35,475 nt of DNA. It comes from Eggerthellales bacterium. GTDB taxonomy: Bacteria > Actinomycetota > Coriobacteriia > Coriobacteriales > Eggerthellaceae. The notes beneath the pieces were generated by a model. That model saw only the letters and a program-made list of their open reading frames with translations. It searched no databases and had not been told where the DNA came from. This document shows positions 21,716 to 35,475 of this stretch, one piece after another. Each line of letters opens with the position of its first letter. The stretch's first letter is position 1. Both the position numbers and the translations under genes were made by a program. The stretch lies in NCBI GenBank assembly GCA_029225085.1, contig JAQXVU010000086.1, forward strand, positions 1-35,475. The letters are read 5' to 3'.

Positions 21716-21842
21716 CCGGGGCTTAGCGGACAAAATGTGTGTCCGATTTCAGGCGTTGACCCAGGTCAGCGCCTGCTTTTTCGCCAAAAAGTCGATTGGA
21801 ACGACTTTTCTGGACGGACAAAAATGTGTCCGCTAACCCCGG
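21716..21842. repeat. Hairpin-rich 127-bp repeat, complete copy
   Basis: The ends are inverted repeats: CCGGGGCTTAGCGGACA on the left and TGTCCGCTAACCCCGG on the right. Inside are four hairpins: CGGACA/TGTCCG (21727-21745), an 11-bp stem AGGCGTTGACC/GGTCAGCGCCT (21751-21774) followed by a T-run, AAAAGTCG/CGACTTTT (21787-21809), and CGGACA/TGTCCG again (21815-21832). Bases 21719-21813 match 34009-34103 with two differences. It lies between the convergent porB and ydcF-like genes. It could be a MITE or a REP-like structured repeat; there is no coding capacity. Confidence 0.85.
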
Positions 21843-24486: not shown

Positions 24487-24586
24487 CGGCATGCTTGGAT
24501 TTTGGAAAGTGACTGAACGGAGCATTTTGATTTGAAGTGAAGTCTTTTTGTCCGCTAATCCTAACTTTATCTTCCTTTTTTTGAAA

Positions 24587-33976: not shown

Positions 33977-34008
33977 CTTGTTCGGGACTCTTTATGCGGA
34001 GTCAATTT

Positions 34009-34103
34009 GGGCTTAGCGGACAAAATGTGTGTCCGATTTCAGGCGTTGACCCAGGTCAACGCCTGTTTTTTCGCCAAAAAGTCGATTGGAACGACTTTTC
34101 TGG
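34009..34103. repeat. Hairpin-rich repeat, second copy, interrupted on the right
   Basis: These 95 bases match 21719-21813 with two differences: G to A at 34059, which turns a G.T pair of the central hairpin into A-T, and C to T at 34066. The right-hand quarter, including the terminal inverted repeat, is missing. Similarity stops abruptly at CTTTTCTGG, where the IS element begins. The copy lies just after the rplA terminator, again in a 3' intergenic position. Confidence 0.85.
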
Positions 34104-35475
34104 GGTTATAGGAAAATAAATGTTGATGTAAATCAGCAAAACCCCAGGTAGAGCCCCTTGGTCAGGGGCTCTACAGTTGCCCGCCCCCAACTCGACACTC
34201 GGAAATATCGTGTTGATGGATTCCAGCATTTCCGCAGGTAAACCCCTTCAAAATCGTCCCGCAAGTTGTTTTTCGACGATTGGGGAGCGATGGGTGCTAG
34301 AAAGTGTCCTGTATGCGGAGGGTCCTTGGTGAGGAACGGGAAGACCACTTCGGGGAAGCAGCGGTGGTTGTGCAAGGCCTGCAGGACCTCTAGGACCAAC
34401 CGCATCAACAACGATGCCAAGCAGTTGAAGGTGTTCCTCGACTGGCTCTTCTCCAAGCAGCGCCAGCTCGACATGCCGAGTCAGGGAAGGACCTTCCGCA
34501 ATCACACCTCCAGATTCTGGAGCATCTGGCCGCTTCCTCCTGTAGTCGACGAGATCCATCGGGTGGTCCATGTAGACGGCATCCACATCGCCCGCAACGT
34601 CGTCGTCCTCATCGCCTGTTCCGAGAAATACGTCCTGGGCTGGTACCTTGCGCGTTCGGAGAACTCCAGGAGCTGGGCGGCGCTCCTCTCCAGGATCGCC
34701 CCTCCCCATATGGTGGTGACCGATGGAGGGAGCGGTTTCGAGAAGGCGCGTCGCCTCGTATGGCCCGAGACGGAGGTGCGGCGCTGCACCTTCCACGCCT
34801 TCTGCCAGGTGAGGCGCTACACGACCACCAGACCGAATCTGGAGGCCGGTGTGGAACTGTATGCGCTCGCGAAGCGCCTGCTGGACGTCAAGGAGGAGTC
34901 CGAAGCCTACATGTGGGTGGTGGAGTACCTGCAGTGGTGTGAGAGGTGGGACGGGTTCCTGAAGGAGAGGACGGTGGTGGATGGCAGGAGCCGGTTGACG
35001 CACGAGAGATTGGTCAAGGCCAAGCGCTCCGTCGACAGGCTCGTCAGCAAGGGGACTCTGTTCACCTTCCTCGACGACCTCCTCACCATAGGTGGACCCC
35101 TTCCCGCGATGAACAACCAGATCAAGGGTGGTGTGAACGCCCCTCTCCGTCAGATGCTGAGAGAGCACAGGGGCATGAGCACCATCCGACGCGTGAAAGC
35201 CGTCTTCTGGTGGTGCTATATGAACACCGAATGTCACCTGGGATATGCCGACATCCTGAAGGTGATGCCGACCGATGGGGATATAGAGGCCATCTACAGG
35301 CAGATGACCATGCCGGAGCAGCGCTTCGACACCATCCCGCAGTGGGGAGATGCCATCGTCTGGAGCGAGCTCCACAACGTAGATCCGTGGCACGATTCAT
35401 GGCGCCATGACTGGGACTGAGGACGCTGATTTCAGCGCTTCGCGCTAAGGGGCGGCAACGCCGCCCCCATCAACA
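34104..35475 (+). mobile_element. IS1249/IS256-like insertion sequence, right end cut by the window
   Basis: The left boundary is set at 34104 because the repeat match stops there. TGTTGATG at 34121-34128 is matched by the inverse CATCAACA at 35468-35475, the last bases of the window, so the right terminal inverted repeat seems to be entered and then lost. A perfect 11-bp hairpin GTAGAGCCCCT/AGGGGCTCTAC (34148-34174) and a GC-rich hairpin GGGGCGGC/GCCGCCCC (35449-35467) flank the transposase and may block outside transcription. A second TGTTGATG lies at 34211. No gene is seen between rplA and the transposase (33928-34289) apart from the terminator, the repeat and the IS end. Confidence 0.75.
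34290..35420 (+). CDS. IS1249-like (IS256 superfamily) DDE transposase, possibly inactive
   Basis: A 376-residue transposase. The N-terminus has a zinc ribbon, CPVCGGSLVRNGKTTSGKQRWLCKAC (C6, C9, C28, C31), as in IS1249-type proteins. The catalytic core shows D96 in VVHVDGIHI and D145 in VVTDGGSGF. The third acidic residue is expected as Glu in an NNxIEG segment, but here the segment reads NNQIKGG (275-281) with Lys279 (AAG at 35124-35126), one base from GAG. The tail REHRGMSTIRRVKAVFWWCYM is family-typical. The ATG at 34290 is preferred over a TTG at 34266, since homologs begin close to the zinc ribbon. If the Glu assignment is right, this copy is catalytically dead. Confidence 0.85.
   Translation: MGARKCPVCGGSLVRNGKTTSGKQRWLCKACRTSRTNRINNDAKQLKVFLDWLFSKQRQLDMPSQGRTFRNHTSRFWSIWPLPPVVDEIHRVVHVDGIHIARNVVVLIACSEKYVLGWYLARSENSRSWAALLSRIAPPHMVVTDGGSGFEKARRLVWPETEVRRCTFHAFCQVRRYTTTRPNLEAGVELYALAKRLLDVKEESEAYMWVVEYLQWCERWDGFLKERTVVDGRSRLTHERLVKAKRSVDRLVSKGTLFTFLDDLLTIGGPLPAMNNQIKGGVNAPLRQMLREHRGMSTIRRVKAVFWWCYMNTECHLGYADILKVMPTDGDIEAIYRQMTMPEQRFDTIPQWGDAIVWSELHNVDPWHDSWRHDWD

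Follow-up and report, generated by a model that had tools for sequence, protein, structure and literature searches.

The window, i.e. the whole 35,475-nt stretch of DNA analysed here, is contig C86 of a genome that was searched over 91 contigs (1.93 Mb). At 21.7 kb it carries a short structured repeat flanked by a 2-oxoacid:ferredoxin oxidoreductase operon on one side and a DUF218 gene, convergent with it, on the other, and a second copy of the repeat sits after rplA; a preliminary description of this DNA had located both copies correctly, and correctly placed both in 3′ intergenic sequence. The features discussed below, which include parts of insertion sequences (ISs) and their terminal inverted repeats (TIRs), are as follows.

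21720..21839, + strand: very probable internal-deletion derivative (MITE-like), made of the left ~108 bp and the last ~10-13 bp of an IS (alignment to a chimera of the IS ends)
21720..21745, + strand: outer left TIR GGCTTAGCGGACAAAATGTGTGTCCG, matching the left TIR of the IS on contig C5 and its relatives
21750..21775, + strand: predicted intrinsic-terminator hairpin with an 11-bp stem, CAGGCGTTGAC-CCAG-GTCAGCGCCTG, then CTTTTT (folding; covariation)
21784..21810, + strand: second hairpin, AAAAGTCG...CGACTTTT (folding; weaker covariation)
21813..21839, + strand: junction of the inner TIR-like repeat CGGACAAAAATG with the right terminus TGTCCGCTAACCC (best breakpoint within TGT(C) microhomology)
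34009..34103, + strand: second copy, left end only (of a full IS or of a deletion derivative), interrupted at 34103 (genome search)
34103..35475, + strand: a different IS1249-family IS with left TIR GGGTTATAGGAAAATAAATGTTGATG, its right tip lost at the contig end (C19 has another right end of this IS, with full TIR)
34290..35420, + strand: transposase of this interrupting IS, IS1249 family (NF033544 profile match, 457 bits, cut-off 300)

With the 127 bp at 21716-21842 as query, a search of the genome's contigs returned bases 4-98 of the query at 34009-34103 with 98% identity (93/95, E = 2.1e-41), in agreement with the value given before. The element proper covers 120 bp (21720-21839), and the wider boundaries add a few flanking bases which extend the inverted repeat by chance (CCGG/CCGG). 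The TIRs reported earlier were recovered within these limits as TTAGCGGACA at 21723 and its inverted copy at 21827-21836, and the strong structure was borne out by a folding energy of -68.8 kcal/mol for the element compared with a shuffled mean of -36.1 (z = -8.0). An Rfam search of the window returned tRNAs only and no match for the repeat, and no DNA match to the 127 bp was found in plasmid and phage collections. An isolated right-end-like sequence, GTCTTTTTGTCCGCTAATCC, was also observed at 24544-24566 of the window (- strand), with one mismatch to the 15-base TIR core; it may be a remnant or a chance match.

Besides the two copies in the window, the same search found left ends on C59 (97% identity), C5 (96%), C36 and C10 and a fragment on C34, while matches to the terminus only were found on C87, C28, C21 and at the right end of the C5 IS. 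Copies outside the window are mostly left ends of full-length or decayed ISs: C59 holds another left end with the same leader, C36 and C10 hold decayed left ends, C21 and C28 right ends, and C87 a 33-bp end-to-end fusion of both IS ends. On C5 the IS is complete (C5:94867-96197, 1,331 bp), with 24-bp TIRs GGGTTAGCGGACAAAATGTGTGTC, the right end CCAGACACACATTTTGTCCGCTAACCC and an open transposase frame of ~370 codons. Its left end contains the same hairpins as the 127-bp repeat; the first ~108 bp of the IS correspond to the repeat up to the repeat's right end, which in turn corresponds to the last ~10-13 bp of the IS. The octamer GCGTTTTT, an 8-bp target duplication, is common to the left flank on C5 and the right flank on C21, and because these flanking octamers are identical, the two contigs most likely belong to a single insertion, one on each side.

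A transposase with matching ends, which the preliminary description had suggested looking for, is thus that of the C5 IS, and it scores 471 bits against the NCBIfam NF033544 IS1249 model (cut-off 300), with weaker Pfam matches to Transposase_mut and MULE. Judged by this transposase model, by prototype-like TIRs and by the 8-bp target-site duplication, the C5 IS is a member of the IS1249 family (IS256/Mutator-type DDE transposases, with the prototype in Tn5432 together with erm(X)). The likeness extends to the TIR form GGGTTA....(T/A)CAAAA.GTGTGTC and to the GGG...CCC termini, and prototype-type IS1249 adjoining erm(X) in Cutibacterium has ends, GGGTTAAGGGTCAAAAAGTGTGTC, of the same type as those of the C5 IS. 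However, the C5-type transposase shares only ~35% protein identity with Corynebacterium/Cutibacterium IS1249, and the C5-type leader contains an inner TIR-like repeat that was not seen, by eye, in the Cutibacterium IS1249 leader. A survey of Mutator-type transposases (PMC3942029) does not mention IS1249.

Scanning of named genomes gave 31 relatives, mostly from Coriobacteriia (Enorma, Atopobium, Ellagibacter, Adlercreutzia, Slackia) and from Actinomyces/Schaalia; the organism to which the window belongs may be placed near these groups. The full-length relatives have TIRs of the type GGGTTA..GGACAAAA.GTGT, and 7 of 10 are bordered by a perfect 8-bp target duplication; across Coriobacteriia and Actinomycetes the same TIRs recur, the inner TIR-like repeat is present in most relatives and the leader hairpin is common to the close ones. 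In Collinsella aerofaciens, a 1,628-bp circular ‘plasmid 12’ (NZ_OY725723.1) is mostly composed of an IS1249-family element, whose left end coincides exactly with the start of the plasmid; the plasmid may be an assembly artefact or a circular form.

Taken together, the 127-bp repeat is very probably a miniature, transposase-less internal-deletion derivative of the 1.33-kb IS1249-family IS that is intact in the same genome. Aligned with a chimera of the left and right ends of the C5 IS, the 120-bp element differs by three substitutions and one inserted base. The best breakpoint falls in TGT/TGTC, a motif that the right end of the IS has in common with the inner TIR-like repeat at its left end; compared with a perfect chimera, the junction has one extra base and lacks one GT. 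The 33-bp fusion on C87 shows the same kind of junction, but with the outer left TIR. The junctions are observed in the alignment, and a microhomology-mediated mechanism is suggested by their sequences for both: a deletion from the inner TIR-like repeat to the right terminus would take out ~1.2 kb, including the transposase gene. Only ~13 of the 24 bp of the right TIR were kept. The flanks of 21720-21839, in which a target duplication was to be looked for according to the preliminary description, are AGATCCGG and CGGGTTGT, which match at 2 of 8 positions. Because there is no target duplication, we do not claim that the 21.7-kb copy transposed in its short form; besides deletion of an IS in place, IS copies may have recombined or the flanks may have decayed.

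The copy at 34009-34103 had been described as complete, which the genome search corrects: at 34103 it gives way to a different IS1249-family element, and it is a further left end of the C5-type IS that this insertion has broken. Its other half was not recovered beyond the interrupting IS, since the assembly contains only one further right end of that IS, on C19, and the flank there is unrelated. CTTTATGCGGAGTCAATTTG is located directly 5′ of the copy at 34009 (window 33989-34008) and a second time on C28 (C28:141-180), following the right end of the IS there together with a repeat of GCGGAGTCAATTTG(CTGG); these are possibly terminal repeats of another IS. The left end and a partial transposase of a third IS1249-family element are present at C87:17762-18396. 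A 30-bp sequence with a palindrome, GCATCTGCTTGCTAGGCTTAGCAGATATCG, directly adjoins two different IS1249-family elements (C19:160-189 and C87:17732-17761), and the genome has just two occurrences of its 24-base core.

The two copies in the window differ at two positions, a G/A site inside the 11-bp stem and a C/T site just past it. At the G/A site, the copy at 34009 has a T-A pair and the 21.7-kb copy a T.G pair, and this difference was earlier read as a change from G to A that improves pairing. A and T occupy the two sites in the parent IS, on C5 as well as on C59, and also in the decayed copies (C36, C10), so that the 21.7-kb copy is the derived, weaker form; A is the ancestral state, and the G reflects decay or drift in a remnant and no improvement of the stem.

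Selection on structure, for which that difference had been cited, is instead apparent in the leader of the parent IS. The hairpins between the two TIR-like sequences are the leader of its transposase gene. When leaders of this genome were aligned with those of others, the main hairpin, whose 11-bp stem leads into a T run, was located after the outer TIR and ahead of the transposase start. The covariation test proposed in the preliminary description gave 97.5% of cells paired and compensatory changes on both sides in 8 of 11 pairs, counted over 11 leaders of which several come from one genome, so that the counts are not all independent. This level was reached by 0 of 500 shuffles, slid controls did not come close, and the second hairpin covaries too, more weakly. 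The main leader hairpin is a predicted intrinsic terminator facing the transposase gene. Its T run, position and structure suggest that it most likely stops transcription coming from outside and would in this way limit transposase expression. Insertion sequences generally limit impinging transcription. In the remnant there is no transposase to regulate, and the hairpins probably survive passively, with the role, at most, of an additional terminator for the upstream operon. We also considered that the ISs may prefer terminators as insertion sites; a terminator-like hairpin was present within 80 bp in 1 of 11 insertions compared with 18 of 550 random positions, numbers too few for support.

The repeat had been proposed to be an undescribed MITE, and this holds in so far as the element is short, non-coding and carries both parental IS termini. 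It is nevertheless of a known kind, an IS deletion derivative, with a single complete copy, no multiple miniature copies and no target-site duplication; 21720-21839 is MITE-like in structure and is not an amplified MITE family. An active family that the genome's own IS1249-family transposase mobilises in trans could draw on the retained ends and on an intact-looking transposase, but we regard it as very unlikely, given the shortened right TIR, the unmatched flanks and the single short copy: a pattern search with exact core motifs for short elements with both ends, run over 396 genomes of the class, found only the 21.7-kb copy and none in the 395 others. IS-derived MITEs such as that of Cardinium, compared with ISCca4 (IS982 family) in PMC9769881, are likewise short non-coding elements whose ends are those of an IS present in their genome; in contrast, the present element is a single complete copy without target duplication or visible amplification, and belongs to a different IS family. 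Among the titles and abstracts of the listed papers no IS1249-derived MITE was found, nor was literature joining MITEs and Coriobacteriia.

A REP-like element, the other suggestion made earlier, would be a host palindrome in many intergenic copies and not an IS end. A REP/BIME-like sequence, or another host-derived regulatory RNA or terminator repeat, would share with 21720-21839 the palindromic form, the 3′ intergenic positions and the terminator hairpin, but the origin differs: the entire length matches the ends of the C5 IS, which refutes this reading, copies are located in front of transposase genes and the window has no Rfam match besides tRNAs, leaving it a negligible probability. Nor do we give practically any weight to host DNA having undergone a simple segmental duplication. 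It would fit the presence of two near-identical copies in the window, 12 kb apart, and the preliminary description had named it as the explanation to accept if only these two existed; it is refuted by at least seven left-end copies or fragments genome-wide in unrelated flanks, together with homologues in other genera. A more far-reaching proposal is that the miniature is mobilised in trans and amplified in other strains of the species, and that the covarying terminator between tandem TIR-like repeats is an undescribed conserved transcription-gating device of IS1249-family left ends; we consider this improbable.

With the internal-deletion reading, a structured repeat that seemed to be unknown becomes the relic of a mobile element already known, and the C5-type IS a new member of the IS1249 family. 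The window holds a deletion relic and a truncated end of this new IS, a finding that is real, well explained and ordinary. Moreover, the covarying leader terminator hairpin of IS1249-family elements in Coriobacteria and relatives is a clear candidate for a device that keeps read-through transcription out of the transposase gene.
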